From an uncultured Saprospiraceae bacterium (GTDB taxonomy: Bacteria; Bacteroidota; Bacteroidia; Chitinophagales; Saprospiraceae): a DNA stretch of 64,000 nt. A model generated the notes under the pieces. It saw only the letters and a program-made list of their open reading frames with translations, was not told the origin of the DNA and ran no database searches. The position numbers and the translations under genes are program-made. Position 1 is the first letter of the stretch. Each line of letters begins with the position of its first letter. Positions 6,145 to 45,983 of the stretch are shown one piece after another. The stretch is taken from the NCBI GenBank assembly GCA_937974625.1, contig CALJVJ010000019.1:22598-86597 (forward strand), read 5' to 3'.

Positions 6145-6525
6145 CAACTTAGCAAGAAGGTTGCTAAATAGCACATAATTAGGAGATAAAAAAAGTTGTT
6201 CATGGAAGTTCAATATCAAAATATGCTTATGTTTCTTTATCTGTAAAATCGGTTAAAATGGATATTTATTGTAAAATTAATTCACTTAGGAATAGCACGC
6301 AACCCAAAAAACGATTTACGCAGCTTGGAGACAAAAATTTAATTTCGTTATTCCATATACGAGAAGAATTAATTTAGGATGTAATTTACATTAAATATTT
6401 TTATAATATATTAAACTGACTATTTATTACCAAAATGTCATTTTATTAAACAATTAAACCATAAATCTCCTTACTTTTTGAGACATTTGGAAGAATCCTC
6501 ACTCATCACTTAATTTTAGACTAAA

Positions 6526-27455: not shown

Positions 27456-30400
27456 ATGAACACAATTTCAACAAAACTAAAAAATGAAATTTTTCAGCTG
27501 TTTTTTTCAAAACCGCATTATCTTATACTCTTATTATTTTCCATCTCCTTTAATGTCAATGCCCAAGTCATCTCTGGTACTATCCTAACAGAAAATGGAA
27601 GTCCAATGGAAGGGGTAACAGTAAAAATGGAGGGAGACCAAACGATGAATATATTAACCGATGCAAGTGGCACTTATAGCTTTCCTGCTGTAAATGTAGG
27701 GTCCAATGTTGTAATCATCCCAGATTTCTCTCCAAGTAATTGTCAAGATACCTGTATTAATGTATTAGATTTAGTACATACTAGGAGATTAATTTTGAAC
27801 ATAGACACTTCCTTTCCATCTCCTTTTGGAGGAGTTAATGCCGATGCAACAGGAAATAGAGTTGGGAATATAGATACCGCTAATCCATTAAATGGGATTT
27901 CGACTTCTGATTTAAATGCTATTAATTCACAAATTCTGGGTGTTAATCAACTTAGTGATTGCTGGAAATTTGTAGATGCCAGTTTTGTTTTTCCAAACAC
28001 TAACGATGTCAATGTTTCCGAAATAGTTTTTAATAATATTCAAAACAATGAGGTAGCTAATTTTATTGGTCTAAGAACTGGGGATGTTAATGCTTGTGCT
28101 AATAATACAGAGGCTGATTTTTTAGGCTTACAATTGGAAAATATCCCAACTAACTCTTGTAATGCTTTAGCTACCAGTTTTAGCATGCCCCTAACAGTAA
28201 CTAATTTTAACGTAATATCGGGCTTACAATTTAGTTTAATTTGGGACCCTACTATATTACAATTTCAAGGAATAAGTAGTTTTAGTAGCACTCTAGGAAT
28301 ATCGGCAGCCAATTTAAATTCCAATAATAGCAATACAGGCGAATTGAACTTTTCATGGTATGATTCTAATGCTAGCGGTATTAGCTTAAATGATGGAGAC
28401 GCTTTATTTTCTTTGCAATTTTCGGTAATTGATGACCAAAGTGCTACGATTGCCTTCTCGGATGTTAATACGCATCAATTGGTAGTCAGTGACCAATTAA
28501 CCACTTCTAACCCTATTACTACGAATGGAGGTATTATAGTAGATACGATAGAATGTGACACCGTCTCTCTTTTTTTAGCCGATGCAACTGCCAATTGTGG
28601 AGAACAAATTTGTGTGGATGTAACTACAACTGATTTTCAAGATGTATTTTCTTTCCAATTTTCTTTGAATTGGGACCCAAATATATTAGAATTTACCTCC
28701 GTTGGTCAATTTGGGGTTTCAGGTTTAGGGGCAAGCAGTTTTCTACAAAATACACCAGGAGAATTAGGTGTTGCTTGGGCAGACCCCTCAGCCTTAGGTG
28801 TTACTATCCCAGACGGTAGCTCTTTATTTCAAATATGCTTCTCTGCTAAAGATGTGAATAATGCGACAGGTGATGTAATATTCTCTAATTCTCCTACTTT
28901 TACCGAATTCGTAAATAATGAAAACATATTAATAAATAATCTAAATAATGGTCAAATCACGGTAAACTGTCCATCTTGCATGTCCGCTTTCAGCTATAAT
29001 CTGGAGGACTGTAATAGTGTACAATTCACCAATCAATCTTTAGGCAACAATCTAACCTACGCTTGGAATTTTGGGGATGGGAATTCTTCCACTGACGAAC
29101 ATCCACTTCATAACTATACCAATAATGGAACTTATACGGCACAATTAATCACCTCCGATAATTTAGGTTGTAAAGATACGACCGAGACGGATATTGTCAT
29201 TAATGTTAACAATCAATTGAACTTAGTTTGTAATGATAATGTAGCCGTAACTATAAATTCGGGGCAAAAATTAGCCATCACGTCTCAATTAATTTTAGAG
29301 TCATTTCCTAGTCCTGATTGTGCCGTTGATACGATTATTTTCAGTCCTGACACTTTAGATTGCACGAATGTAGGGGCTAATAATGTTACGGCAACACTAA
29401 CGGATATTAATGGTGCTGCTAGTAGTTGTACTACTGTGGTAACCGTTACGGGTAGTTGTGATTCGGTATCTTTTGCGGTATCAGATATAATAGGCAATTG
29501 TGGAGAGCAAGTTTGTGTAAATGTAACCACAGCTAATTTTCAGGATATACTTTCTTTTCAATTTTCTTTGAACTGGGATGCAAGTATTGTACAATTAACT
29601 TCTTTTGGTCAATTTGGCATTACAGATTTAACTACAGGGAATTTCCAACAAACTACCCCTGGAGAAATAGGTGTTTCTTGGTTCCATAATTCAACTATAG
29701 GTGTTAGTGTTCCAGATGGTACTTCCTTATTTCAATTATGTTTCGAAGCCCATGAAGTGAATAATGCGACTAGCAATTTAGTTTTCTCCAATTCTCCTTC
29801 TCCTATCGAAATGGTAAATAATAATGGAGAAGTTGCGCATAAGTTAACTGATGGTCAAATAGCTATCGACTGTCCATTCACTTTTACTTGTCCACCCGAT
29901 GTCACCATCAATCAAAGTATTTTACCTGCGGTAACAGGGGAACCTACTTTTGATAATCCAGCCTTAATTGATACATTCTTCTACACAGATGTTCTTAGTG
30001 AAGTCTGCGAACCTGTGATTTATGAGCGAACTTGGACCATGACGGATGTCAACGGCAATACTTCTACCTGTGTACAAATACTTAGTAGAGCAACTGTTGA
30101 CATTAATGATATTATTTTGCCCCCTGATATAACAGTTGATTATTGTTCAGGAGATGCACAAGCTATAGGTTTAGAGCATACGGGCACTCCAACAATTTAT
30201 GATGCGCAATTGTCCACTAATGAATACGTACTTGGATTTATTCTAGCTTTTGATGATAACATGACCTCTCCAACTCAGATTACTAAAAGTTTTAAGGTAG
30301 TATATTGGTGTGACCCTAATCCAGCCCCCGTGGATATAGGCCAGCAGATTATTACAAAAGATACGACGAACTGTTCCTGTATCGCAGCTTTTAATTACGA

Positions 30401-33400
30401 TATAGAGGATGTCTGCGGTACCGTACAATTCATGAATCAATCCACTCAGGCAAACAGCAATCCACTAACACACAGTTGGAACTTTGGAGATGGAACTACT
30501 TCTACCGATGAGCATCCGCAACATATCTATACGACCGACGGAACCTATATCGTGCAACTGATAACGAGGGATAATTTAGGATGTGCCGATACGACAGATA
30601 CCCAAATAACTATCACTATTGACAATCAAGGTCCACAGGTGATTTGTAACGACAATCTAACTGTTTCTATTAATGCTGATGAAGTACTTGCCATAACGCA
30701 TCAACTAATTTTAGAGTCTTTCCCTACGGATGTTTGTGGTATTGATACCATTACTTTTAATCCAGATAGTCTAGACTGTACAAATGCAGGTAATAATGAT
30801 ATCATAGCAACGGTAACGGATAATAACGGGAATGTAAGTTCTTGTACAGCCATCGTTACGCTCCAGGTTGGGCCTGATGCTAACGCTCAATTCTTTCCCC
30901 CAACACCGCTTTTTGTCTATGAGTCAGGCTATGATATTTCCCAAAATGTAAGTCCACTTGGAGGTACTTTTTCTGGGGCGGGCATCAACGGAGTTATTTT
31001 TGAGCCCGCTAGTGCAGGTGTTGGGATTCATGCCATTACGTATACATATAACAATAATAAAAACTGTCCTATTTCGATAACGGCAGACATAGAAGTATTA
31101 TCATCTAATCTAACCTTATGTGATTCTACCCATATCAGTGATTCCAATGCTAGAGGGCATAGGGACTCTTGTTGTCATACGATTATCTTAGGGAATCAAT
31201 TAGCTAATCGTTTTACTAGTGTTAAGATTAGTACCTTAAATTCAACGACGTTCTGGCCTCCAGCAGTTACTCCTACATTTTTAGGGGGAACACTCGTTGA
31301 AAAATCATCAACTCCTAACAGCATAGAATTAATAGCGCCAACTCAAAATACAGGTATTTGCACCTCAGGTAATTTAGATTATTTACCTGTATTTGGTAAT
31401 CGAGATATCTTTGATTTATGCCTAAAAAATGCAACTCATTCAACGAATCCTATTTTAATAGAATGGTTAGATTGTGATAATGTCATTTGTCAAGATACCA
31501 TTAATTTAACCTGTCCAGAATGCCCTGTCATCAATGACACTTTAGTATGTAGAGACGACTCCTTAAAATATCAATTCCAAATTGTCAATAATTTTTATCA
31601 TAATATTGATACCATAAAACTACATTATATCGAGCCTGCGGGCGCAACTATTTCTCCAAATCCATTGGTGTTGGCCAACCCTATTCTTTCAGGTACGACT
31701 TCTCCAATGCTAGAAGTACATTTAGATAATGTGGGGAATGCGAGCAATATAAAAATGCTTTTGGAATTTAATGAAATAGACTGCTGTTTCTGTATTCCAG
31801 ATACTATCGACTTAGCAATTCCAGTATGTAATAATTATTGTACCGACTCCTTAATGTTTTGTCAAAAAGTTGACCAAGGTTGGATGATCAATACCAATGA
31901 TTTAACGGTCGATATTACAGCTCCCCAATTTGATACTTGTCATTGGATAGTGGCTTCCCCTGATTGGGGAGATAACGCAAATAGTTCAAATTGTACGGAT
32001 AATGTATTTTTTGAAATAGGTATTGACGGAATCTCACAAAAAGATTCACTAAAGTGCTGTAGCGCAGGAAACAATAGATTTGAAGATGATAATACAACTG
32101 ACGGAATCCTTTATTTAGATACTGCGCCTAGAAATGATATTTATACGATTTGTCCAACCAATGACCGATACAACTTGACTGCTACCTTAACCTCTTTTGA
32201 TATAGCGCAAGGAGATGTCTTAATGGTTTTTGACGGAATGGATGTAAATGCTCCTTTTTTAGCTTCTGGTAGTGGCGTAGGCGTAAGTAATTTTAATAAT
32301 GGTTTTGTCTTTTCCAATCCATCTTTAGCGGTTAACCCTTCTGGGTGTTTAACTTTTCAGTTTCAAACCAATGGAGATAATATGAAAGGCAGTGGCTGGG
32401 AAATGTCCTTGATTTGTGAAGAAAGAGCACAACCGCTAAACCAGACATGGACGCATACCTATGATAACCCAGGTACTTATATTATTTGTGCTGAAGTATT
32501 TGAAGGAAATCCCAATACACTAGATGTTTGTTGGAGTAAGCAAATGTGTGATACGATAACTGTTGGGGGGTGTCAACCATACTTTATATGTCCTGATGAC
32601 CTACTAGTAGCAGATTGTCCGTTAACTTTTGACCCAAATACACTCCCAGCGCCTACCCTAGTAGACACTTGTGTGAATAGTATGCCAACCATGATTTCCT
32701 CTATTGAAACTCTTATTACTAATGACTGTTCAGTCAAGCATATCATAACTTGGGAATTATTGGATAACGGTATTCTAGTAGATCTTTGTCGGTATTTAGT
32801 AGAAGTCAAAGATACCATTAAACCCTCTATTATTTGTCCGAATAATATCAATTTATCCGTAGATTTAAACTGTCAAGTAGCATTACCTGATTTAACAAGT
32901 CAGGCAACTATTACCGATAATTGTTCCCCTATAGATAGTTTAATTATCACCCAAAATCCACCAGCAGGCACTATGCTGATGCCGAATATTCACAATGTAT
33001 CTATCATCGTTGAAGACGAATGTGGGAATATTGATTCTTGTATATTACAGGTGAATGTTGAAGACAATATTGCTCCAACTGCTATTTGCAGAGATCCAAT
33101 CAATCTAAGTCTTAGTTCTAGCGGATTTATTGTAATTACCGCAGCTAATGTGAACAACGGTTCTTTTGATAACTGTGGTATAGATACGATGTATCTTGAT
33201 AAATATACGTTCAATTGCTCAGATATTGGTACGAGTCCCACTGTTACGCTGACAGTAGTAGATATTTATGGAAATAGTAATTCCTGTATTTCACAGGTCA
33301 ATATTGAGATTAAAATTCCCAATACCTTCCAATGCCCAAGTGATACTTGTTTAACCGCACCAATGGGGGTTGATAGCCTCCAAGTAAATTTTACTGCTCC

Positions 33401-36400
33401 TACTTTTAGAGGCGTATGTAGCAACCGATTTATTAGTTGTGATTATCAGTCAGGAGACTTTTTTCCTTGCGATACAACGGTTGTTACTTGTATGGCAGTT
33501 GATACAATGTTAAATGATACTGTTTTCTGCTCGTTTAATGTAATTGTTAAAAAAGAAGAAAAAACTTGCTGTCAAGATTCCTTATTGTTCTGTCAAAAAT
33601 TTGACGCTGGGTTTATGACTTCCATTGATAGTTGTGGGGTAACAATTCTTCCTACGGCTTTAGATAGTTGCCATTCTATTACTTATACTTTTGGGGACCA
33701 AAGTACACCTACTTCGATAGTAGATGGAAGTACCTCGGTTGGTCATGCTTATGCTGCGCCAGGCAATTATACTATATGTGCCACAGTAGAAGAGTTAGAT
33801 GATAATGGTGTCGCTTGTTGGACAAAAGATACTTGTTGGACGGTTTGTGTGGATTGTGATACTTGTACAACACCTGAATTATATAATGTGGCTGCTTGTT
33901 ATGCGGGGAATACCATTAACTTTTCAGGCTATGACCAGCAAATGGATATAGAATATCATCCTTCTGGACAATACTATTATACGACAGGAAGCATAATTGG
34001 GAATAGCTATTGTGGCGCTCCTGTAACCGCTTATGGAGGTATGGATTTGGTCATTTCAAAAATAGATAATACGACTGATAATGTCATCCAAGCCTTCACT
34101 TTTGATGGAACAGGGGATGATATTGGTCGAGTTATCAAATATTTGAATGGTCATATTTATGTGGCTGGTGCTTTTACTAGCGATACCTTAAGGATTCCTT
34201 CACCAGGGGATAATGAATTATCTGCTAAAACTTTGCAAAGTACAGGGGCCGTTCACACAACCTTTTTAGCTAAATACGATGCTAATTTTAAACTAATTTG
34301 GGCATTTTCGCTAAATGGCATTAGAACTACCATCGAAGATATTGCTATTGGTAATACTAATGAAGTTGCTATAACGGGATTGTTTCAAGGCGCAAACGTT
34401 GATTTTAACCCTTTAAATACAGCCGCACCTTTTACTATTAGCTCCGGTTCTAATCATAGTGGGTATGTTGCTAAATATACTCCTAATGGTAACTTATTAT
34501 GGGCTAATAGTTACACCGTTACTACCGTACCCACACCAATTAGTGTTTCCTCCGCTGGTTATGGCGTAGGAATTGACCAACAAAACAATACTTATGTTAC
34601 AGGAGAATTTACAGGGAATTTAACTATTAGTACTAATAATAACAATAACCCTATTTCTACTACTTATTCAGATACTGTAGCAAGAGCATTTTTGATACAA
34701 ATTGATAACATAGGCAATACTACTTGGCATACAGATATTAAATCTACTCCAGGTAATGCTACTTCTGGTTGGGATATTGCCTTTGATAATAATGATATGT
34801 ATGTTGCTGGATGGAGTGGATTTATTACTAAATATGATATAAGTCCGTCTTTTCAGCCTGTTCCTTCCATTCCAGTACAAAAATGGTATTACGACGTCGG
34901 TTATGATATATATGAAATAGCAATAACCAATCAACAATTGCAAACTTTTGGTACACAAAAAAGAAGGCCTAGGGGTCCTGCGAATCCTGATAGAGGAATA
35001 ATAGGCTATAACTTTGATTTTAAAAATGATGCAGTGCCGATTCCTAGTAGAGGTGGTTGGGATATGGTTTTAGCCTATTACGATTTAGAAGGAAATTTCC
35101 TAAAAGGCATTAATGTAGGAGGAGGTTTATTTGAAATTGGTCATGGTATAGCCGCCCATAATGGAGAAACAGTTATTATTGGACATTTTGATAGTTCTAA
35201 TTTAGAATATGACCCAAAAAACAGCAATAATATTTTTACACTATCGGCTACTCCGCCTACAACAAACAGAGGCATCTTCATCGGCAAATACGCCTGCAAA
35301 TGCCCCATCGAAATCGAATGCCCTCAGGATATTTCTATAGATGTCCCAATTGGCACAGATAGTATTCAAGTAAGCTTCGACCCGCCAACCATGTCGGGCT
35401 TCTGTGACCGAATTATTACTTGTGATTACCAATCAGGCGATTTCTTCCCTTGTGATACAACTGTGGTCACATGCATGGCGATAGATACTTTGGTGAATGA
35501 TACCGCTTTTTGTTATTTCAATGTGATTGTCAATAAAGTAGATACCTGCGCCATTAGATGTCCAAGTGATATTGTCATCACGGCAGCTCCAAATTCTTCG
35601 GGATTAGTTGTGCCTTTCGACCCTCCTACTTTGAGCAGTGGATGTGACCCAAGTTACACGGTCTCTTGTAGTCATAATTCGGGAGATGTTTTCCCTTGTG
35701 GTACGACAACTGTTACTTGTACCGTCAGTGACGGAAATGGGAATGCTGTTGAAACTTGTACCTTTACCGTTACCATCAATTGTTCTTGTCAGCCCATTAT
35801 TTTATGCCCTGCTGATGCAATTGTAGATTGCTGCAATGATTTCAATTTTGTACCACCTACGCTGCGAAACCCATCTTGCGGCAATGGGAAAATACTTATT
35901 TGTAAAAGAGATGATGGATTGAGTTTGACAGCTCCTTATCCCTCTGGCGTTACGGCTATTACTTGTATCGCAGATAGTGATTTGGGATGGATAGATAGTT
36001 GTACTTATTTTGTAACCGTGTTGGATACTATTCCTCCAATGCTTAACTGTCCAATAGATACAGTGGTCACCGTAATGGATAGTTGTCAATACATTTTACC
36101 TGATTTTAGACCAATCGTAAATGTCTCAGACAGTTGCGACCCAACGTCTGGTATTATTGTAATTCAACAACCTAGTCCAGGTGTTATTTTAACGCCAGGC
36201 TTTCATCCGATTACCATTATTGCTTCAGATAGCTGTGGTAATGAAGATTCTTGTGTGATTGATTTAACCATTAATTGTATTCAAGATAATTTATGTTGTC
36301 AAGACTCTCTGAGTTTGGACTCCATGATTTATGCTGTTTTCGATAGTGCCATAATCAATTGTGACACGCTTTGTTTGAAGCCAATACCAGACACCTGTAA

Positions 36401-39400
36401 TTTGCATTGGATGGTCGATTGGGGCGACGGAAATAATACCCCTTGGGATGGCGTAACAGATTCTATTTGTCAAGTTTATAATTATCAAACGCCGACGAAC
36501 GTTCCAGTCTGTATCACCGTATTTGAATTGAATGATGATGGAGAAACTTGTCGGACGCAAACTATCTGTGATACGTTTTTGATAGAAAGTTGTGGACCGC
36601 CAATTGATACATTCTGTGGCAAAGCAGTAGTTACCTGTTTTCCTAGTTTTAATAATAATAATCCAACCCAAGGGATTAACCTTAATTCACCAGTTCTTGG
36701 TATTGTGGACATTAGAGATAGAAGCGGTCAACCATCTGGACAATATTGGAGTGGTGCCAGCGGAACAAATATTTACCATGCAAATATCTGGAACTATCAA
36801 AACTTAGGACTAATATTTGGCCTAGCACTTGATAATCAAAATAATATCTACACCAGTTCTACAACGACCTATGGTTGTGCATTCTCAACTGGAGAATCTC
36901 CTTTTGGGCCAAGTGGCCTTTCTAGAATTTATCAAATTGACCCCTCAGATAACATTTCAGTATTTATTAATGAAGGTCCTTTTGTTCCTGCTGGTACGGG
37001 AAAAAACATTCCTAGTAGTGGTGCTGGTTTTGGAAATATTTGTTATGATTCAGATAATGACCAACTCTTTGTTACCAATATGGCGGATGGGATGATTTAT
37101 CGAATAAAAAATGGTTTGGTAGTTGACCGATTTGACCCTTTCACTACCTCAAACGCTCCTTCTTCAGACAATCCTGATTTTGTGGACGTGGGAGAACGGA
37201 CTTGGGGTATAGCTTATTACAATGACAAGATTTATTTTAGTAGATGGCAAGAAGATAGAAGCCGAAGAGACCCTACTCTTTTTAATGAAATTTGGTCTGT
37301 AACGTTAAACAATTTAGGTGGTTTTAACTCTACTTCTATTTCTACTCAAAACACCTATATTGATAATAATCTAACGGATAATTTGGTTAGTCGTTTAGAG
37401 TTAAGTCTACCTGACCATATTGACTATTATGACAACAGATTTGGAACAAATTTCTATTCAGGTTATTCTAATCCTGTTTCCGATATTGCTTTTACAAGTG
37501 AGGGGGTAATGCTTCTGGCAGAACGTTCAATGTATGGAGATTGTGGCAATGTTAGTCGAAACCCAGTAAATGATCCTAATGTTCCAAACGTCTCTTTTGC
37601 TTATTATTATGCCCATCAAGCTCGTGTTTTAGAATATGAACAGATTGGTAATAATTGGGCACTAACGCCAGAGCATGGTCTAGGTGTACCACCACCGTTT
37701 ACTGATTATTTGACTGAATTGAAGTATATTCTGGGCAATACTGTGTCAAATGCTCCTGGAGGTGCGAATTCTTCTGGAGGTGTGGATTATGGTTATGGAA
37801 GTTTTACTCCTGATGGAATGAATAATCAGTTGGTTTGTGATGAAATGGCTTGGCTTGCTGGAGATTGGCTACAATGTCCTACTGCAACAAGAGTTTATGG
37901 TATGTTAGGCGTCAATGCCAATACTGGTGGAAATTCCTGTACAGGTTATGGTATTGATTATGATGGATTTACTACTTCTTCTCAAGTAAAAGTACAACAA
38001 GGAGACGTAGAAATCTTCAAATGCTTCGACTGTCCTAAGGATGAAACAGATTGCGATTCCCTAATGGTTATGGTCAATCCTATCTCAATGCCCGACGACT
38101 CTACGTGTTGCTATACCATTGACCTGAAAAATAATGTAAGTACTGATGTGACTAAAGTATGTTTTGATTTATTTGATAATCCTGATTGGATATTGAATAC
38201 CAGTACTATTAATATTCCGGGATTCACCTGGAGTGTAGCTACAGGCAATCAAATTTGTTTAGAAAATAGTGCAGGAATTCCATTGGGAATGAATGTTGGA
38301 GTAATGGATTTCTGCCTAGCAGCTTTAGCAGAAACAGCTAGAGATACCCAATGTTTAGCCGTCTCTTGGTTTAAAGGAAGAGAACAAATTGCTTGTACCG
38401 ATACGCTAAAAACATTCTGTCAAAAAGCACCTCCTGGTGACCCTTGCTTTGTTATCAGCAATGTCAGTATTGATTGTACAGATGGGGATGATAATTCCTA
38501 TTGCATGAACTTTGACGTCACCAATATGACTGGTTTCGATGCATCAGGTATCATTTTAAACAGTTTGCCTTCTGGTTATCTTTTTGACGATTGTGGTTGC
38601 GGAGGTAGTCCTTTTGGCTTGGGTGATTATGCGTTTGATTTTGGCATTAGTACGCCCCTATTGCCAAACCAAACCAGAAGTTTATGTATAAAAATAACCA
38701 GTATTCAACCAGTTTTAAGTCCAATAGATGTTTGCTTCTTTGGAGCGCTACAAAGTTTTACAGAGTGCTGTAAATCTCCTGATGACATTTGTGTCACCTT
38801 AAATCCTTGTTGTAGTCCATGTGAATCCATGCAAGTCAATGTAGATGAACTAGACGGAGAATGTTGTTATGCTATTGATGTAGATTATAGTTGTGATTAT
38901 ACTGCATTTAATAAAATTTCTTTTGACATAACTTCTAGCGCTATTTTTGGTTCGCACACCATCACTGATGCTAATTGGACAACTTGCACAACGCCAAACC
39001 CTCAAAGTGTTTGTATTGAGCCAATAACTCCAGGAGGAATACCTGCTGGCTTGTATGACGATTTATTTGAGTTCTGTTTAAGCAATACTCAGTTGAATAC
39101 GACAGAAACCATGAAGGTAACCTATTGGATGCTCGACCAAAATGGTCAAGATAGTATGGCTTGTGATACCTTATTGGAATTTGTTTGCGATACGATTAGT
39201 CAACCTTGTGTGTTCATTACAGATGAAGAAATCATCTGCTTGCCAGATAGTAGTAAATATCGTATTAATTTAACCGTTCAGAATATTTCGAACAATGGTC
39301 TTGTTGCTGATGGTATTTTAATCCAACCCTTTTCGACCGAAATAAGCCCGAACCCAATCAATTTTGCGAGTCCATTACCTAATGATGGTAGTACAGAAAC

Positions 39401-42400
39401 CATTTCTTTCTGTTACGAACCAGCCATTTTCCCTGATTCGGATGATGAACTTGTATTAATTTATAAATTATTCCAAGGAAATTACCACAATTGTTGCAAT
39501 GGAAATGAGACTATTCTCGATACACTCATGCTACCTCCTTGCGACACGATGATATGCACCCCCATCGTCATCTGCCCAGCAGACACCTGCATCAACCTTA
39601 TGGCAGGAGAAACGGGTGTTATCGTAGATTATGAATTACCTATTGACACCAATAATTGTGAAGTAGAAATTATCTGTGACCCTGCTCCAGGTACTGAATT
39701 CTTCTGTGGCACAACACCAGTTGTTTGTACCATTATAGACCTTCAAACAGGAAATAGAAGTTTCTGTGAGTTTAATGTGATTGTGAAATGTGATACGATG
39801 AATTGTGAAGTGGACTTAATTTGTCCTATGGATGAATTTGTCAATTGTTGTGAGGAGTATTCCTTTGCCGAACCTGTTCTGACCGATACTTGTGGCAATG
39901 CTCAAATTCTTTCTTGTACCAGAGATGATGGTTTACCAATCAGTGCCCCTTATGGTGTAGGCGCAACGTGTATTACCTGTATAGCTGGGAATGATTTTGG
40001 CTGGTTGGATACTTGTAAATATACCGTAACGGTCTTAGATACGATTCCACCGTTTATTGATTGTCCAAATGATACCCTGTTTAATTTATTGGATAATTGT
40101 AATTACACTTTGCCTGATGTCACAGGATGGGCTACTATTTTGGATGATTGTAATTTTACCGTTACTCAAAACCCGATTGCAGGGACTATTTTCCCTGACG
40201 GCATCCACCCTATTCAAATCATAGTGACTGACGATTGTGGCAATGTCAATGCTTGTAGTTTCAACTTAACTATTGTTTGTGATACCATGCCACCGATGAG
40301 CGTTTGTTGTAAAGATTCGCTTGCTTTATGCGAATTAGCAGATGTGGTGTTTAATAATTTCAGCTTAAGTTGTGATACCCTTTGTTTTGAACCTGTCCTA
40401 GATAATTGTGATTTGGATTGGTCGATAGATTGGGGAGATGGAAATTCTGGGACTTGGAATCCTAATCAACCTAATATTTGCCACGATTATGATATAATGA
40501 CTGCCGACAACTTTGTGGTTTGTTTAACAGTTGAGGAGCGCAATCCTGATGGGTCGATATGTCAACAAAAAATTATCTGTGATACTATTTTCATCGACCC
40601 TTGTCCGCCGCCTATCATGGAAACTTGCTGTAAAGATACTGCAGATTTCAACAAGCGAATAGCCAATTTGACAATAACGCCTATTTACAATAATTGTGAA
40701 ATTTTAGTCAATGTTACAGGTTTAGATACTTGTGATGTCATCTACTGGAACTGGGGCGATGGACAAACAGATGGGCCATTAGGTAATAATTCACCGATTA
40801 GTCATACTTATTTCCCTTCAGGTCCATACACCGTTTGTTATACAGTAGCGCAAATGAATAGTCTTGGAGATACTTGTTTCTCTAAAATGTTCTGTTTGCC
40901 AATACAAGTGGAGTGTGAAGACCCAAGTTGTGATAGTCTTCCGATTATCAAAACATTTAGCACCACGATTGTAACCGATTTATTTAATACACAAGATTCT
41001 TATGAAGACCAAGGATTGAGTGGGATTGATTTGTTAGATGGCAATATACGCTTAGCAGGTCATAGTTGGGCATATGGGCGAACGGCGAATGAGATGATTC
41101 CCGAATTGACCAATGATGGGACCTTAATCCAAAACCATATAAAAGACAATCAATTAGTTCGGAATCAGAACGAATATCCGCAAGATATTCATGCTTTCCG
41201 TAGAAAAGGAATTACTAGACGTAGTCAAGGATTAGCAGTTACTGGATATGTGCGAAACAGCAATAGTCGTTCTACTGATTTATTCTTACAAACACTTCGA
41301 CCCGATGGTAGCATTATTGCAACCGTTCATCATGGAGCCAGTAATGCGAACGAACGAGGGAATGCATTGATTGCGGACACCCAAAATAGATTTGTTGTCG
41401 CTGGCCAATTTAATGGTCAAGCACATGCGGTCAAGTTTAATTCAAGTCTATCTCAAGTATGGGGTAAAACAATTTCCTTTTCAGGAGAAACCGCTACCCT
41501 ACTTAATGTCACACAAATAAAAGGTTTAGCTTGTTTCAAGGGAACCGCTCCATTTTATGCCTTTGTTGGTTACAAATCGAATCGAAGAACTAGTGAAGGC
41601 CTAATCGTGATTTTAGATAAAAATGGAGACCTCGCTTATCCTGTCCAATCCTTTAGTTTAGGAGCAGGTAATGTAGAAGCCTATGCCGTAGCTCAAAATA
41701 ACCAAGGACAGTTGATTATAACCGGTAAACACACTACTCCATTCCCAAATAATCAAAAGCGCATATTTGTTGTAAATGTAGATTGTGTGAATGAACGTAA
41801 TCTCCAAATCAATTGGTCTAATTTATACGATATTCAAGGGAATATTGGAGAATTTGCCAAATCCATTTTGATTGACCGAGCAAATAATATCCTCATCAAT
41901 GGTCATGGTTATTTATCAGAAGGTAGAGTTGCCTTTACTGGCAAAAAAGGAATGGCTATAATGATGAGTATTCCTCCAAATGGTCAAGCGATTAATTGGG
42001 CACACAAGTATTTTGATACGGATTACGATGGTACAGAATTTAACCATTTGTCTCAAACTTCAGACGGTGGGTATTTATCCACGGGTTCTGCTTGGGTTAA
42101 CCAAAATAGAGGAGATGGTGGAGTTGACTTCGCTGCTTTTAGATTTAGAAGTCCTGTACATAATTATTATGCCGTTAAAACGGACCAAGAAGGTGTCGTT
42201 TCTGATTGTGATTGTTATGAACCGATTACGGTCATCCCACAGAATGTAACGAATATCATAACCAGTTTAACAAATCCTCCTAAGGATTATATCATTCCAC
42301 TTGCTACGGAATACACCGATTTCAGTGGGCCTGCTGACCAACAATTTTGTGAGCAATACTGCCCACCGGGACCTTGTGAATGTGGTGATTTCTTAGATAT

Positions 42401-45400
42401 GGGTTTCTATTCAGATATCGAAAGTCAAATAACGCCTGATTTTGGTCTAGAATGTGAAACAGGCTATGTTTTATCTTGTAATGACAATGGAAAAATTGCT
42501 GGTATCAAGGGCTATTTTGAGTGTAAAGGCAGCTGTGACCCTTCCAAACAGCCTACTTGGACTTTGACCAACACCTCAAAGGGACAGGTCGTAGAAAGGG
42601 GTTCCTTCACGCTCCCGAATATCAATATTGAATTTAGTCCAACTGCCTTTAATGTAAATGGGACTTACCTCTTTGAAATGAGTGCTTATTGTGGCGACCA
42701 ACTATGTACTTGTTCGATTTCTTTCTTAGTGGAGGACTGCGAAGAGTTCTGCTCGAAGAATAGATTATCTAATGGTGATTTTTCAGAAAATATACAAGCA
42801 GGAGCACTTCCCTCACCAGGTAATACAGAATTTTGGCAAGCTTCCATTAGGATACCTTCCTCAGGTATAACTACCCCTGATGCATTTATGGTGGTGGATG
42901 ACGGTTGTAGTACTAACGGTTGTGTAGAACTACTTAGTGAGCATGATTATTCATTAATTACCCAAACAATACCACTTAATGGTGGAGAATTTTATGAGCT
43001 TTCTTTCTGTGCTAAAAACATAGATGCTAATGTACTAAATAATCAAGTTGAAGTATTCACATTTATTACGCCTAATTTTGTTAACCTTGGGTTTAGTCCT
43101 AATCTAACCAATACTTGGCAAAATTATACAATAACCTTCCAACAACCTACTAATAGTAACGAATTAATGCTGTCGCCTACAGTAGTAAATGCCGCAGGAA
43201 GGGGAACCATTAGAATTGATGACATTTGTTTAAAACAAATACAACCTGATGATTGCGATTGTAACAATTTGGCAGCAAATATTAGAGCAGGTTTTGAGGT
43301 ACAAAATGAATGTAACCAAGTTACCCTAACACCTAATGCATTAACTACTTGCGACCAAGTAACTATTGATTGGGGGGATGATTCAGCTCCTACCACTTCA
43401 TTCGGCAATCAACCAATTAGTCATGCTTATGGCTACGATGGAGAGTTTAAGGTCGCTTTAAAAATTACTAGAACAGATGCCTCTAGAAATATCTGTGTGG
43501 ACAATTCCACTCTTCCAGTTATTATTCGTTGTTTCAGCAATGTGGAAAGCTACCAACCAGATAGAAAAATAACCACTTCAAGAAACAATAATACTATTAC
43601 TTGCGGGAGTGGATTCATTGAAAATGGTTTCTTTGAAAATGGCGCTTTCTCTGGTAATTTAAATTTATCGGGAAGCGTCGATGGCTGGCAAACTGCAACA
43701 GGTAATCCTGTGGTAGAAAGAATTAGCTTTATGAGTAGTGATTACCACATCCGCTTAAGCGCAACGGATGCGGAGCGAGATGCCATTACTCAAGAAGTCA
43801 CCTTTAGTCCTGCCAATAGTTATGCCTTCTCCGCCGTTATCGAATCTTGCGGACAAATGACGGGAGAAAATTCTGGAGTCTGTGAAAATACTACCATTGA
43901 GGTATTCGCTTCCAAAGACCCCTTAGATAATTTGGATTGTACAGATGATTGCGCATTAATCGGCACCTATACTATTGCAGAAACGAATGATACAATGGCC
44001 ATTGAATTAGCTGCTTGGACACCAGACCAAACGTATAATTTCCTAACCATTGCTGTAAAAGCATCAAATGAAGCAGCTCAATTGACGAGTGTGAGGATTG
44101 ATGATGTGTGTATGGAAGTCAATGAAGTGCTAAGTAATTGTTGCCAAGATTCTTTAAATTTTGCAAGCAATGTGGAAGCGGGATTTGAATTTTCTATTCT
44201 GGATTGTAGCATAGAAGCCAAAGGAAGACAATTAACTGATTGTCAACAAGTATTCTGGAAATTTGGAACAGATAGTCCACTTTCCAACCCTGTCGCTGGA
44301 AATGTGGCTATCCAAAATCAATTTTTAAGTGCTGGCAATTACGAAGTATGCATGTTAGTTACAGAAATTGGAGCAGATGGTAATAGCTGCTTTGAAGCAG
44401 TCTATTGCGAAACAATTCCAATTACAGCATGTGCGGAGGATACGGTCTGTTGTGTGAACACTCCAGAATTCGGAACCATTTTGGATAATGGTTTTACTTT
44501 GATAAATGAAAATCAATGTATGATATCTGTCGCTCCGAATATACTACCTGGCGATTGCTATCGAATCACTTGGAGTTGGGGGGATGATTCGCCTAGACAA
44601 ACAGTAACTGCTGTGGATAGCTTTGCACTAAGTCATGTTTATCCTGCTACTAATTCCACGGAATTGTATGAAGTATGTATGGTCTTAGAAATTTTTGAAA
44701 ATGGAGATACTTGTTTAGTAGATGAATATTGTGAGTTTGTTGAAATTGATTGCAGCAATATTCCTGTTGATAGTTGCACCTGTACTGGTTTTGACAATCT
44801 AAATTTCTCTAACCCTAATCGAAATTGGGCAGTTAATTGTGGCGATACTGGCATATTGCTTGATTGTGAGAATGAGACAAGTATGACGAACTTTACGGGC
44901 ACCTTTGCATGTAGCGATGCTTGTGAGGATAAAGTATTATTCTGGGAGGCTTTCGGGGCTTCAGGAGATTACTTTAATGGATTTATCCAAATAGATGCCC
45001 AAAATGAATTCAATACAAGCTTTAGTGAAATGGGGATTGTAAATCCTGAATCTTATACATTAATCCTTAATGGTAACTGTGATGGTAATTCCTGTGAAAG
45101 TTGTCAACTGCAGTTTGCTATCCCAATATGTAGTGATACTTGTTGTATAGAAACATCTGTTTTTGAAGCTCAAGTAACACAAGGCTTTTCCACTGAAAAA
45201 ACTTGCGAATCTTTATCTGTTCAACCTAAGGACTTGGATGAATGTGATATTATCAATTGGATATGGGGAGATGGCACTACTTCACAATCTACGGGTAAGA
45301 GTGAAGTAATACATAATTACAATATTGAAACAGTAACAAAATTAGCCGTTGAAGTTTGTATGCAAGTCTCTCGTTTAGATGACGAAGGAAATTCATGCTT

Positions 45401-45983
45401 ACAATCTACACATTGTCAAATGATAACCATTGACAATTGTTGTAGCTGTGAAGATTTCAGTTTTGATTTTGACCTATCTGAAGATTGTAATCAAATTTTG
45501 GTTACGCCTACCGGGGTTTACGATGATTGTGATGAAATCAGGTGGAAATGGGGAGATGGAACAGAAATAGTTGCTTCGGCAGGTACTTCCACAGCTACGC
45601 ATAATTACACTTCGGAAGGTCCATATATTATTCAAATGACTGTTTTCCGTAGTGCAGAAGGACAAAACTGTGGTAGAACCAAGTCAAGAAATATTTCTAT
45701 AAATTGTATTTCCACTGGTTTAGAAGATTTATTGACCAATAAACAAATTAGGATATATCCAAATCCTGTTCAGCACTTATTACAAATAGATTTAAACCAA
45801 CCGTTAAAAATTGGTTCTGAAATTAGAATACTCAATTTAATGGGACAACTTACGCATACCCAATTGATAGGAACGCCAAGTTTAAAACATACGCTTTCTT
45901 TAAGTAATTACATACCGGGGGTTTATCTAATCGAAATCCAGGAAGACGATTTTATTTTTAGAGAAAAAATTGTAAAACAATAA
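27456..45983 (+). CDS. Giant (6175 aa) T9SS-type mosaic protein: carboxypeptidase-regulatory-like and dockerin-like N-terminus, three cohesin-like modules, HYR, PKD, CUB-like, propeller-like and CBM-like modules, C-terminal sorting domain
   Basis: Single 18.5 kb ORF. 'VISGTILTENGSPMEGVTVKMEGDQTMNILTDASGTYSFPAV'; 'GISTSDLNAINSQILGV...ANFIGLRTGDVN'; 'GEQICVDVTTTDFQDVFSFQFSLNWDPNILEF'; many 'WGDG..HxYxxxGxYxVC'; C-terminus 'IRIYPNPVQHLLQIDLNQPL...GVYLIEIQEDDFIFREKIVKQ'. Confidence 0.95.
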   Translation: MNTISTKLKNEIFQLFFSKPHYLILLLFSISFNVNAQVISGTILTENGSPMEGVTVKMEGDQTMNILTDASGTYSFPAVNVGSNVVIIPDFSPSNCQDTCINVLDLVHTRRLILNIDTSFPSPFGGVNADATGNRVGNIDTANPLNGISTSDLNAINSQILGVNQLSDCWKFVDASFVFPNTNDVNVSEIVFNNIQNNEVANFIGLRTGDVNACANNTEADFLGLQLENIPTNSCNALATSFSMPLTVTNFNVISGLQFSLIWDPTILQFQGISSFSSTLGISAANLNSNNSNTGELNFSWYDSNASGISLNDGDALFSLQFSVIDDQSATIAFSDVNTHQLVVSDQLTTSNPITTNGGIIVDTIECDTVSLFLADATANCGEQICVDVTTTDFQDVFSFQFSLNWDPNILEFTSVGQFGVSGLGASSFLQNTPGELGVAWADPSALGVTIPDGSSLFQICFSAKDVNNATGDVIFSNSPTFTEFVNNENILINNLNNGQITVNCPSCMSAFSYNLEDCNSVQFTNQSLGNNLTYAWNFGDGNSSTDEHPLHNYTNNGTYTAQLITSDNLGCKDTTETDIVINVNNQLNLVCNDNVAVTINSGQKLAITSQLILESFPSPDCAVDTIIFSPDTLDCTNVGANNVTATLTDINGAASSCTTVVTVTGSCDSVSFAVSDIIGNCGEQVCVNVTTANFQDILSFQFSLNWDASIVQLTSFGQFGITDLTTGNFQQTTPGEIGVSWFHNSTIGVSVPDGTSLFQLCFEAHEVNNATSNLVFSNSPSPIEMVNNNGEVAHKLTDGQIAIDCPFTFTCPPDVTINQSILPAVTGEPTFDNPALIDTFFYTDVLSEVCEPVIYERTWTMTDVNGNTSTCVQILSRATVDINDIILPPDITVDYCSGDAQAIGLEHTGTPTIYDAQLSTNEYVLGFILAFDDNMTSPTQITKSFKVVYWCDPNPAPVDIGQQIITKDTTNCSCIAAFNYDIEDVCGTVQFMNQSTQANSNPLTHSWNFGDGTTSTDEHPQHIYTTDGTYIVQLITRDNLGCADTTDTQITITIDNQGPQVICNDNLTVSINADEVLAITHQLILESFPTDVCGIDTITFNPDSLDCTNAGNNDIIATVTDNNGNVSSCTAIVTLQVGPDANAQFFPPTPLFVYESGYDISQNVSPLGGTFSGAGINGVIFEPASAGVGIHAITYTYNNNKNCPISITADIEVLSSNLTLCDSTHISDSNARGHRDSCCHTIILGNQLANRFTSVKISTLNSTTFWPPAVTPTFLGGTLVEKSSTPNSIELIAPTQNTGICTSGNLDYLPVFGNRDIFDLCLKNATHSTNPILIEWLDCDNVICQDTINLTCPECPVINDTLVCRDDSLKYQFQIVNNFYHNIDTIKLHYIEPAGATISPNPLVLANPILSGTTSPMLEVHLDNVGNASNIKMLLEFNEIDCCFCIPDTIDLAIPVCNNYCTDSLMFCQKVDQGWMINTNDLTVDITAPQFDTCHWIVASPDWGDNANSSNCTDNVFFEIGIDGISQKDSLKCCSAGNNRFEDDNTTDGILYLDTAPRNDIYTICPTNDRYNLTATLTSFDIAQGDVLMVFDGMDVNAPFLASGSGVGVSNFNNGFVFSNPSLAVNPSGCLTFQFQTNGDNMKGSGWEMSLICEERAQPLNQTWTHTYDNPGTYIICAEVFEGNPNTLDVCWSKQMCDTITVGGCQPYFICPDDLLVADCPLTFDPNTLPAPTLVDTCVNSMPTMISSIETLITNDCSVKHIITWELLDNGILVDLCRYLVEVKDTIKPSIICPNNINLSVDLNCQVALPDLTSQATITDNCSPIDSLIITQNPPAGTMLMPNIHNVSIIVEDECGNIDSCILQVNVEDNIAPTAICRDPINLSLSSSGFIVITAANVNNGSFDNCGIDTMYLDKYTFNCSDIGTSPTVTLTVVDIYGNSNSCISQVNIEIKIPNTFQCPSDTCLTAPMGVDSLQVNFTAPTFRGVCSNRFISCDYQSGDFFPCDTTVVTCMAVDTMLNDTVFCSFNVIVKKEEKTCCQDSLLFCQKFDAGFMTSIDSCGVTILPTALDSCHSITYTFGDQSTPTSIVDGSTSVGHAYAAPGNYTICATVEELDDNGVACWTKDTCWTVCVDCDTCTTPELYNVAACYAGNTINFSGYDQQMDIEYHPSGQYYYTTGSIIGNSYCGAPVTAYGGMDLVISKIDNTTDNVIQAFTFDGTGDDIGRVIKYLNGHIYVAGAFTSDTLRIPSPGDNELSAKTLQSTGAVHTTFLAKYDANFKLIWAFSLNGIRTTIEDIAIGNTNEVAITGLFQGANVDFNPLNTAAPFTISSGSNHSGYVAKYTPNGNLLWANSYTVTTVPTPISVSSAGYGVGIDQQNNTYVTGEFTGNLTISTNNNNNPISTTYSDTVARAFLIQIDNIGNTTWHTDIKSTPGNATSGWDIAFDNNDMYVAGWSGFITKYDISPSFQPVPSIPVQKWYYDVGYDIYEIAITNQQLQTFGTQKRRPRGPANPDRGIIGYNFDFKNDAVPIPSRGGWDMVLAYYDLEGNFLKGINVGGGLFEIGHGIAAHNGETVIIGHFDSSNLEYDPKNSNNIFTLSATPPTTNRGIFIGKYACKCPIEIECPQDISIDVPIGTDSIQVSFDPPTMSGFCDRIITCDYQSGDFFPCDTTVVTCMAIDTLVNDTAFCYFNVIVNKVDTCAIRCPSDIVITAAPNSSGLVVPFDPPTLSSGCDPSYTVSCSHNSGDVFPCGTTTVTCTVSDGNGNAVETCTFTVTINCSCQPIILCPADAIVDCCNDFNFVPPTLRNPSCGNGKILICKRDDGLSLTAPYPSGVTAITCIADSDLGWIDSCTYFVTVLDTIPPMLNCPIDTVVTVMDSCQYILPDFRPIVNVSDSCDPTSGIIVIQQPSPGVILTPGFHPITIIASDSCGNEDSCVIDLTINCIQDNLCCQDSLSLDSMIYAVFDSAIINCDTLCLKPIPDTCNLHWMVDWGDGNNTPWDGVTDSICQVYNYQTPTNVPVCITVFELNDDGETCRTQTICDTFLIESCGPPIDTFCGKAVVTCFPSFNNNNPTQGINLNSPVLGIVDIRDRSGQPSGQYWSGASGTNIYHANIWNYQNLGLIFGLALDNQNNIYTSSTTTYGCAFSTGESPFGPSGLSRIYQIDPSDNISVFINEGPFVPAGTGKNIPSSGAGFGNICYDSDNDQLFVTNMADGMIYRIKNGLVVDRFDPFTTSNAPSSDNPDFVDVGERTWGIAYYNDKIYFSRWQEDRSRRDPTLFNEIWSVTLNNLGGFNSTSISTQNTYIDNNLTDNLVSRLELSLPDHIDYYDNRFGTNFYSGYSNPVSDIAFTSEGVMLLAERSMYGDCGNVSRNPVNDPNVPNVSFAYYYAHQARVLEYEQIGNNWALTPEHGLGVPPPFTDYLTELKYILGNTVSNAPGGANSSGGVDYGYGSFTPDGMNNQLVCDEMAWLAGDWLQCPTATRVYGMLGVNANTGGNSCTGYGIDYDGFTTSSQVKVQQGDVEIFKCFDCPKDETDCDSLMVMVNPISMPDDSTCCYTIDLKNNVSTDVTKVCFDLFDNPDWILNTSTINIPGFTWSVATGNQICLENSAGIPLGMNVGVMDFCLAALAETARDTQCLAVSWFKGREQIACTDTLKTFCQKAPPGDPCFVISNVSIDCTDGDDNSYCMNFDVTNMTGFDASGIILNSLPSGYLFDDCGCGGSPFGLGDYAFDFGISTPLLPNQTRSLCIKITSIQPVLSPIDVCFFGALQSFTECCKSPDDICVTLNPCCSPCESMQVNVDELDGECCYAIDVDYSCDYTAFNKISFDITSSAIFGSHTITDANWTTCTTPNPQSVCIEPITPGGIPAGLYDDLFEFCLSNTQLNTTETMKVTYWMLDQNGQDSMACDTLLEFVCDTISQPCVFITDEEIICLPDSSKYRINLTVQNISNNGLVADGILIQPFSTEISPNPINFASPLPNDGSTETISFCYEPAIFPDSDDELVLIYKLFQGNYHNCCNGNETILDTLMLPPCDTMICTPIVICPADTCINLMAGETGVIVDYELPIDTNNCEVEIICDPAPGTEFFCGTTPVVCTIIDLQTGNRSFCEFNVIVKCDTMNCEVDLICPMDEFVNCCEEYSFAEPVLTDTCGNAQILSCTRDDGLPISAPYGVGATCITCIAGNDFGWLDTCKYTVTVLDTIPPFIDCPNDTLFNLLDNCNYTLPDVTGWATILDDCNFTVTQNPIAGTIFPDGIHPIQIIVTDDCGNVNACSFNLTIVCDTMPPMSVCCKDSLALCELADVVFNNFSLSCDTLCFEPVLDNCDLDWSIDWGDGNSGTWNPNQPNICHDYDIMTADNFVVCLTVEERNPDGSICQQKIICDTIFIDPCPPPIMETCCKDTADFNKRIANLTITPIYNNCEILVNVTGLDTCDVIYWNWGDGQTDGPLGNNSPISHTYFPSGPYTVCYTVAQMNSLGDTCFSKMFCLPIQVECEDPSCDSLPIIKTFSTTIVTDLFNTQDSYEDQGLSGIDLLDGNIRLAGHSWAYGRTANEMIPELTNDGTLIQNHIKDNQLVRNQNEYPQDIHAFRRKGITRRSQGLAVTGYVRNSNSRSTDLFLQTLRPDGSIIATVHHGASNANERGNALIADTQNRFVVAGQFNGQAHAVKFNSSLSQVWGKTISFSGETATLLNVTQIKGLACFKGTAPFYAFVGYKSNRRTSEGLIVILDKNGDLAYPVQSFSLGAGNVEAYAVAQNNQGQLIITGKHTTPFPNNQKRIFVVNVDCVNERNLQINWSNLYDIQGNIGEFAKSILIDRANNILINGHGYLSEGRVAFTGKKGMAIMMSIPPNGQAINWAHKYFDTDYDGTEFNHLSQTSDGGYLSTGSAWVNQNRGDGGVDFAAFRFRSPVHNYYAVKTDQEGVVSDCDCYEPITVIPQNVTNIITSLTNPPKDYIIPLATEYTDFSGPADQQFCEQYCPPGPCECGDFLDMGFYSDIESQITPDFGLECETGYVLSCNDNGKIAGIKGYFECKGSCDPSKQPTWTLTNTSKGQVVERGSFTLPNINIEFSPTAFNVNGTYLFEMSAYCGDQLCTCSISFLVEDCEEFCSKNRLSNGDFSENIQAGALPSPGNTEFWQASIRIPSSGITTPDAFMVVDDGCSTNGCVELLSEHDYSLITQTIPLNGGEFYELSFCAKNIDANVLNNQVEVFTFITPNFVNLGFSPNLTNTWQNYTITFQQPTNSNELMLSPTVVNAAGRGTIRIDDICLKQIQPDDCDCNNLAANIRAGFEVQNECNQVTLTPNALTTCDQVTIDWGDDSAPTTSFGNQPISHAYGYDGEFKVALKITRTDASRNICVDNSTLPVIIRCFSNVESYQPDRKITTSRNNNTITCGSGFIENGFFENGAFSGNLNLSGSVDGWQTATGNPVVERISFMSSDYHIRLSATDAERDAITQEVTFSPANSYAFSAVIESCGQMTGENSGVCENTTIEVFASKDPLDNLDCTDDCALIGTYTIAETNDTMAIELAAWTPDQTYNFLTIAVKASNEAAQLTSVRIDDVCMEVNEVLSNCCQDSLNFASNVEAGFEFSILDCSIEAKGRQLTDCQQVFWKFGTDSPLSNPVAGNVAIQNQFLSAGNYEVCMLVTEIGADGNSCFEAVYCETIPITACAEDTVCCVNTPEFGTILDNGFTLINENQCMISVAPNILPGDCYRITWSWGDDSPRQTVTAVDSFALSHVYPATNSTELYEVCMVLEIFENGDTCLVDEYCEFVEIDCSNIPVDSCTCTGFDNLNFSNPNRNWAVNCGDTGILLDCENETSMTNFTGTFACSDACEDKVLFWEAFGASGDYFNGFIQIDAQNEFNTSFSEMGIVNPESYTLILNGNCDGNSCESCQLQFAIPICSDTCCIETSVFEAQVTQGFSTEKTCESLSVQPKDLDECDIINWIWGDGTTSQSTGKSEVIHNYNIETVTKLAVEVCMQVSRLDDEGNSCLQSTHCQMITIDNCCSCEDFSFDFDLSEDCNQILVTPTGVYDDCDEIRWKWGDGTEIVASAGTSTATHNYTSEGPYIIQMTVFRSAEGQNCGRTKSRNISINCISTGLEDLLTNKQIRIYPNPVQHLLQIDLNQPLKIGSEIRILNLMGQLTHTQLIGTPSLKHTLSLSNYIPGVYLIEIQEDDFIFREKIVKQ

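Follow-up and report, generated by a model that had tools for sequence, protein, structure and literature searches.

A giant T9SS protein with dockerin and cohesin modules and a candidate cohesin–dockerin surface scaffold in Saprospiraceae

Modules of the giant protein

The window, a stretch of 64,000 nucleotides from an uncultured Saprospiraceae bacterium, contains a giant T9SS surface protein of 6175 residues (27456..45983, + strand), identified by ORF calling together with Pfam and TIGR profiles. All features of this protein described below lie on the + strand. It starts with a predicted signal peptide, assigned by inspection (residues 1–36, 27456..27563; ...SISFNVNA followed by Q), and continues with a CarboxypepD_reg-like (CpD) domain, a dockerin, two cohesins, a PKD and an HYR domain, a third cohesin and a further run of PKD and HYR repeats, these repeats being recognised by Pfam. 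A T9SS type A sorting domain (CTD) is found at the C-terminal end (45753..45971; PF18962 41.0 bits, TIGR04183 41.7 bits). The segments quoted in an earlier note on this DNA were all found in place inside this reading frame, and its description of a T9SS-type protein is borne out by the type A tail. With this tail matched and the signal peptide recognised by inspection, the protein is predicted to be T9SS type A cargo. A search of eight congeneric genomes with one internal query of 505 residues gave partial matches only, and no full-length relative.

The window also contains a second giant protein (1-6219, − strand) with a P-domain and Ig/PKD-like domains, in which a weak cohesin-like stretch is found at about 5095-5454 (E=1.6e-5). 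A 575-residue protein resembling biopterin-dependent aromatic amino acid hydroxylases is encoded at 49177-50901 (+), and a thermolysin-type M4 metallopeptidase followed by leucine-rich repeats at 60201-63998 (+), which continues past the window end.

The CpD domain (residues 37–91, 27564..27728) is a transthyretin-like β domain assigned from PF13620, the family CpD profile and the strands predicted by AF2. The carboxypeptidase-regulatory-like domain of the earlier note is supported by the family profile (47 bits), although the score against PF13620 (31.6 bits) just misses the cut-off of 32.3. The dockerin is separated from the first cohesin by an extension (residues 164–222, 27945..28121; ...CWKFVDASF...FIGLRTGDVNA), delimited by alignment with relatives and by their co-variation.

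The three modules that follow are true cohesins. Cohesin 1 (residues 235–362, 28158..28541), cohesin 2 (residues 368–505, 28557..28970) and cohesin 3 (residues 668–806, 29457..29873), the nearest relative of which is cohesin 2, each pass the PF00963 cut-off of 24.1 bits alone in the genome search (37.4, 50.6 and 36.5 bits respectively), and the three stretches together score 93.6 bits. A profile of these cohesins and their relatives gives a best match to the PDB of E=3e-11, and up to E=1e-4 matches cohesins only. When an AF2 model of residues 36–366 (pLDDT 79, pTM 0.76) is compared with the PDB by Foldseek, the best matches are mostly cohesins and reach a TM of 0.67; the fold is supported by model and sequence for cohesin 1, and by sequence for cohesins 2 and 3. 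The agreement of these approaches is well beyond chance and confirms the three cohesin-like modules proposed before. Ordinary Ig or FN3 folds, by which the earlier note might have been overturned, are ruled out by the Foldseek and PDB profile matches, because the segments are cohesins. The cohesins of the wider family fall into two classes, 'cis' (cassette) and 'poly' (scaffold type), the nearest neighbour being of the same class in 114 of 120 sampled. The window protein has cohesins of the poly class throughout: cohesin 1 scores 97 bits with the poly profile and 43 bits with the cis profile, cohesin 2 132 and 48 bits, and cohesin 3 135 and 55 bits.

The segment between the CpD domain and the extension is a divergent dockerin (residues 92–163, 27729..27944), delimited by the family Doc and Block profiles and by AF2. 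It scores 38 bits with the Doc profile and 113 bits with the Block profile (E=1e-33, residues 39–327), and three helices are predicted (residues 103–113, 125–129 and 150–161). Judged from these profiles, and from a three-helix topology that is driven by the family alignment, the segment is a homologue of the Saprospiraceae dockerins described below. The order of its motifs is reversed. The first F-hand (residues 99–119, 27750..27812; TCINVLDLVHTRRLILNIDTS) resembles the second motif of the family in its PSSM scores (25.5 bits for motif 2, −0.2 bits for motif 1), and the second F-hand (residues 146–166, 27891..27953; NGISTSDLNAINSQILGVNQL) resembles the first (20.6 bits for motif 1, 7.7 bits for motif 2). 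Among 239 distinct dockerins of the family, position-specific scores place motif 1 ahead of motif 2 in 236, and reverse this order in the window copy alone. The two D12 positions are 47 residues apart, compared with 35 in 233 of the 239, and the loop ahead of the second F-hand exceeds the usual length by 12 residues. Loop A (S-N-C-Q-D-T-C-I-N-V-L-D) has lost the family-invariant ligands D1 and N3, and R17 is retained in the motif-2-like hand. New cysteines are found in or near the loops at residues 96, 100 and 169, and might stand in for Ca2+ as a brace.

Two F-hand Ca loops of the form D1-x-N/D3-x-D/N/S5...D12 were looked for in this dockerin and were not found, and PF00404 gave no match to the window protein even at E≤1. 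What the earlier note had called a dockerin-like module is therefore retained as a homologue of the dockerin family, and not as a standard dockerin with two canonical loops in the usual order. An absence of Ca-binding geometry, which would have spoken against the earlier note, is partly seen in this copy, where loop A lacks its ligands and loop B is lengthened. It is possible that the window dockerin is a dead pseudomodule, that the three cohesins are the only working parts and that the protein is a plain cohesin-bearing adhesin. The lost ligands, the longer loop, the new cysteines and the failure of PF00404 favour this reading, whereas the three helices still predicted by AF2 and the conserved R17 do not. 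A similar arrangement in another genus also counts against it: locus L231 has an N-terminal CpD–dockerin before scaffold-type cohesins, with the second loop lengthened and the second hand motif-1-like. The chance that the window module is dead seems to be only a little short of even; the proposal concerns this copy only, and is compatible with a scaffold at the level of the family. Given that L231 shares the long second loop and a second hand like motif 1, the reversed order may equally have arisen by stepwise replacement or by true permutation.

The cassette family, polycohesin proteins and their gene array

A genome-wide count of proteins with these modules, as suggested in the earlier note, places a CpD–dockerin–cohesin block in about 30 other ORFs of the same genome. 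It usually occupies the C-terminal end of the protein, immediately ahead of a type A sorting domain, and this arrangement is subsequently referred to as the cassette. Having dockerin and cohesin in one chain is no special feature of the window protein, and proves to be the rule in the cassette family. The block is not unique to the window protein, and the dockerin query was matched in 304 of the 398 genomes of the GTDB family. In the fetched loci, the retrieval of which favoured the block, a cohesin directly follows the dockerin in 184 of 192 cases, and the dockerin lies at most 300 residues from the C-terminus in 171 of the 176 with a known end. A C-terminal tail follows the block in all 78 named loci, which are mostly labelled Saprospiraceae or Lewinella. 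AF2 models the entire cassette with high confidence (pLDDT 94.9, pTM 0.79).

PF00404 gives about 35 matches above cut-off to the cassette family in the window's own genome, and the cassette dockerin profile matches dockerins in the PDB (E=1e-5). Loop 2 of these dockerins is a canonical Ca loop (D1 in 92/92, N3 in 89/92, D12 in 92/92), and loop 1 is atypical across the family (L5, N6-G7). The heads joined to the cassette vary and include animal-type haem peroxidase (CpD-Doc-Coh-CTD cassette at L081:4703-7570, −), redoxin (the same cassette at L082:7480-9225, +) and HYR or unknown repeats; no glycoside hydrolase or other cellulosomal enzyme domain was found in the 7 cassette and 6 cohesin-only proteins scanned.

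Several further arrangements were observed. One cassette protein of more than 5400 residues (L071:1746-18233, +) has eleven extra CpD-like repeats in its middle. An 1817-residue protein (L241:4033-9483, −), in which no sorting domain was recognised, has three CpD–dockerin units spaced by scaffold-type cohesins in the order Coh-[CpD-Doc-Coh3]x2-CpD-Doc-Coh. Two proteins of 370 residues (L092:6126-7232, +; L093:5129-6238, −) contain a second type of dockerin (WPGDVNNNG...), after which come an apparent further cohesin-like β domain and a tail. Finally, three proteins (L098:7383-9653, −; L085:4263-7094, +; L097:4350-6287, −) terminate in a dockerin-like pair alone, without a recognised sorting domain, and are possible trans partners of scaffolds.

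Proteins of a second class have 3–10 cohesins and lack a dockerin. Their tail is usually a type B sorting domain, which is found in 7 of the 8 complete dockerin-free polycohesin proteins scanned; several cohesins per protein is also the mark of a cellulosomal scaffold. SprB repeats are found in some polycohesin proteins. Those polycohesin proteins that do carry a dockerin have a type A end where the tail is recognised. The window protein combines a dockerin head with poly-class cohesins and a type A tail, and is therefore counted as a hybrid.

The two classes are linked by a gene array that recurs in several genera, in which a cassette protein is followed by a cohesin–CTD-A protein of about 270 residues, a CTD-B protein with 3–10 cohesins, and PorP/SprF. 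Among eight loci picked because cohesin and dockerin matches shared a contig, the four-gene array is complete in L349-L355 (the cohesin of the L353 cassette being unrecognised) and nearly complete in L356. In no fewer than seven genomes these genes are joined in one array. Of 89 cassette ORFs from the named loci, fetched without regard to their neighbours, 10 have a poly-type cohesin gene directly downstream, with none upstream and none on the opposite strand. In the window's own genome, contig C54 carries the last three genes of the array (Coh-CTD-A, 8xCoh-CTD-B and PorP) and contig C175 a cassette gene followed by 4xCoh-CTD-B and PorP/SprF; the window gene itself lies outside any such array. 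The modules also occur together: among 299 genomes of the order, 84 have a dockerin and a strong cohesin match, 1 has a dockerin only, 2 a cohesin only and 212 neither, with the reservation that in about 12 genomes the best cohesin match is weak enough to be the cassette cohesin. In one genus, 7 of the listed genomes have both and 7 have neither.

Recognition residues, co-variation and a candidate surface scaffold

Of the cassette cohesins, 250 of 251 share a Gln that is also present in 90% or more of the poly class and in each of the three cohesins of the window protein. When placed by profile offset, a mapping at the level of sequence, it aligns with Gln37 in a cohesin from Bacteroides cellulosolvens, a residue that forms a hydrogen bond with position 10 of the dockerin (PMC8063739). 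Dockerins can also bind in a rotated, dual mode (eLife 10319; PMC8063739). Given the near two-fold symmetry of dockerins, and their ability to bind after a rotation of 180°, the swap of F-hands in the window copy need not abolish binding.

The reading that we favour, with a probability of roughly 0.55, is that these proteins form a T9SS-delivered, non-cellulosomal cohesin–dockerin surface scaffold, of which the window protein would be a lineage-specific hybrid member; it presumes binding between the modules. The gene arrays, the division between type A and type B ends, the co-occurrence and the retained recognition residues all fit such a scaffold. PorP/SprF would retain the type B polycohesin protein at the outer membrane, where it would act as the scaffold, on which dockerin cassettes would dock their cargo (adhesin repeats, peroxidase, redoxin) via the classical 8-3-6-5 cohesin face. 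In the window protein, a CpD–dockerin head like that of the cassettes would be joined to three cohesins of the scaffold type and to a type A CTD. On account of this hybrid architecture it is proposed to be an adaptor scaffoldin, which would display dockerin partners on its own 6000-residue stalk, and the divergent dockerin, if still binding, would link it to another cohesin. A bolder form of this proposal, which is put forward tentatively and seems rather doubtful, is an organelle-like equivalent of the cellulosome in which PorP/SprF-held type B polycohesin scaffolds collect dozens of T9SS-delivered cassette proteins. The window protein would again be an adaptor, its permuted dockerin being tolerated because dockerins bind in two orientations. 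The loss of Ca ligands from loop A of the window dockerin, its lack of a Pfam match and an overall depletion of dockerin–cohesin couplings (see below) count against the scaffold, and co-occurrence could simply reflect a general abundance of giant T9SS proteins.

Co-variation was analysed by a mean-field approach on 251 cassettes, which recovers the enrichment of couplings within domains. By this measure the CpD domain, dockerin and extension form one unit, with CpD–extension and dockerin–extension couplings enriched, whereas dockerin–cohesin couplings are depleted overall (0.4-0.6 times expectation). Dockerin positions 17, 18 and 22 are assumed here to be recognition positions. Together with positions 10 and 11, which are confirmed (PMC8063739), they make up the recognition set. 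This set is mildly enriched for coupling to the cohesin (p=0.033), compared with p=0.19 for the CTD and p=0.68 for the CpD domain. The strongest dockerin–cohesin pair, R105–N258 (z=7.4), uses dockerin position 17, a classical contact position, and was ranked first in 12 of 12 subsamples; N258 presumably lies at the classical Glu86 contact of the cohesin. These observations are suggestive, and offer weak support for a contact between dockerin and cohesin of the same chain.

As 184 of 192 dockerins directly precede a cohesin of their own chain, it is possible that the cassette acts as a cis clamp or as a plain spacer. In a clamp, the dockerin would bind the following cohesin, either capping itself or turning the chain ahead of the sorting domain into a rigid stalk that resists proteases; no scaffold between proteins would be implied, and the window protein would be an N-terminal variant of the stalk. 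The confident model of the whole cassette, and a top-ranked pair and enriched recognition positions within one chain, agree with this arrangement, the same-chain signal being unexpected from trans partners alone. However, the overall depletion of dockerin–cohesin couplings, beside enriched couplings to the extension, does not, and a clamp leaves unexplained the dockerin-free polycohesin proteins, their arrays with cassette genes and the co-occurrence. The cohesin after the window dockerin, moreover, belongs to the other class. On balance a clamp alone is considered unlikely. The co-variation within one chain points to cis or homotypic pairing and the arrays point to trans pairing; both could occur if the dockerin stays capped by its own cohesin until it encounters a scaffold. 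That the modules are structural relics, generic β or helical spacers in giant T9SS adhesins with no mutual binding, is quite improbable: the atypical loop 1, the degenerate window dockerin and the lack of cellulosomal enzymes among the proteins scanned would agree with it, but Ca loop 2 is invariant, the cohesin Gln near-invariant, the recognition positions and gene array are conserved, and dockerin and polycohesin are present or absent jointly.

The earlier note had offered self-assembly or a non-cellulosomal surface scaffold as the function of the window protein. This interpretation is supported in part. The surface scaffold fits the evidence from the family as a whole; self-assembly within this single protein is weakly supported, its dockerin being degenerate and order-swapped and the co-variation giving weak support for a same-chain contact.

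Comparison with known systems

No description of a Saprospiraceae T9SS cohesin–dockerin system was found in the open literature searched, as judged by titles and abstracts. If the proposed scaffold is correct, an abundant Bacteroidota family has adopted the cohesin–dockerin plug as a general device for surface assembly and tied it to the T9SS, whose organisation of cargo outside the membrane is poorly known, and new orthogonal plug pairs would be available for protein engineering. The gene array supplies defined pairs for testing, and, with its motifs swapped, the window dockerin offers a natural experiment on binding in two modes.

The module families are shared with the clostridial cellulosome, with its type I and type II cohesin–dockerin pairs and its scaffoldin, adaptor and anchoring scaffoldin. 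A multi-cohesin scaffold, dockerin-tagged cargo and a separate anchoring class are also features of the Saprospiraceae system as proposed, and the CpD domain beside the Saprospiraceae dockerin is reminiscent of the clostridial X-dockerin dyad. Whereas the clostridial system uses Sec with SLH or sortase anchoring, that of Saprospiraceae uses the T9SS, and its anchor would be the type B CTD with PorP/SprF. Its dockerin cassettes also bring their own cohesin, and no cellulases are among the heads observed to date, which comprise adhesin-like repeats, peroxidase and redoxin.

Cohesins and dockerins occur outside cellulose degradation in Archaeoglobus, and Peer et al. reportedly described non-cellulosomal cohesin/dockerin proteins in 2009. 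In ANME archaea, proteins that combine a single dockerin with as many as five cohesins have been described (PMC9012536). Compared with these non-cellulosomal proteins, the Saprospiraceae genome has about 30 cassette proteins, a fixed CpD-Doc-Coh-CTD order and a conserved four-gene array. The planctosome of freshwater Planctomycetes is a hypothetical cohesin–dockerin surface complex in which the adaptor consists of a dockerin, HYR and a cohesin (PMC6461901). It belongs to another phylum, with no T9SS named and few proteins, whereas the Saprospiraceae system is family-wide and has gene-array evidence.

The Gln on the cohesin face that bonds dockerin position 10, and the dual binding mode, are features that the Saprospiraceae modules would share with the B. 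cellulosolvens complex of the Cel48 dockerin and cohesin ScaA11 (PMC8063739); the Saprospiraceae dockerins differ in having one canonical Ca loop, and the window copy in its reversed motif order. Finally, the polycohesin proteins resemble SprB-type gliding adhesins, which are T9SS type B cargo with a PorP/SprF partner, in their SprB repeats, CHU_C/TIGR04131 tail and adjacent PorP/SprF gene. They are set apart from these adhesins by an N-terminal part made of 3–10 cohesins and by their linkage to dockerin-cassette genes.
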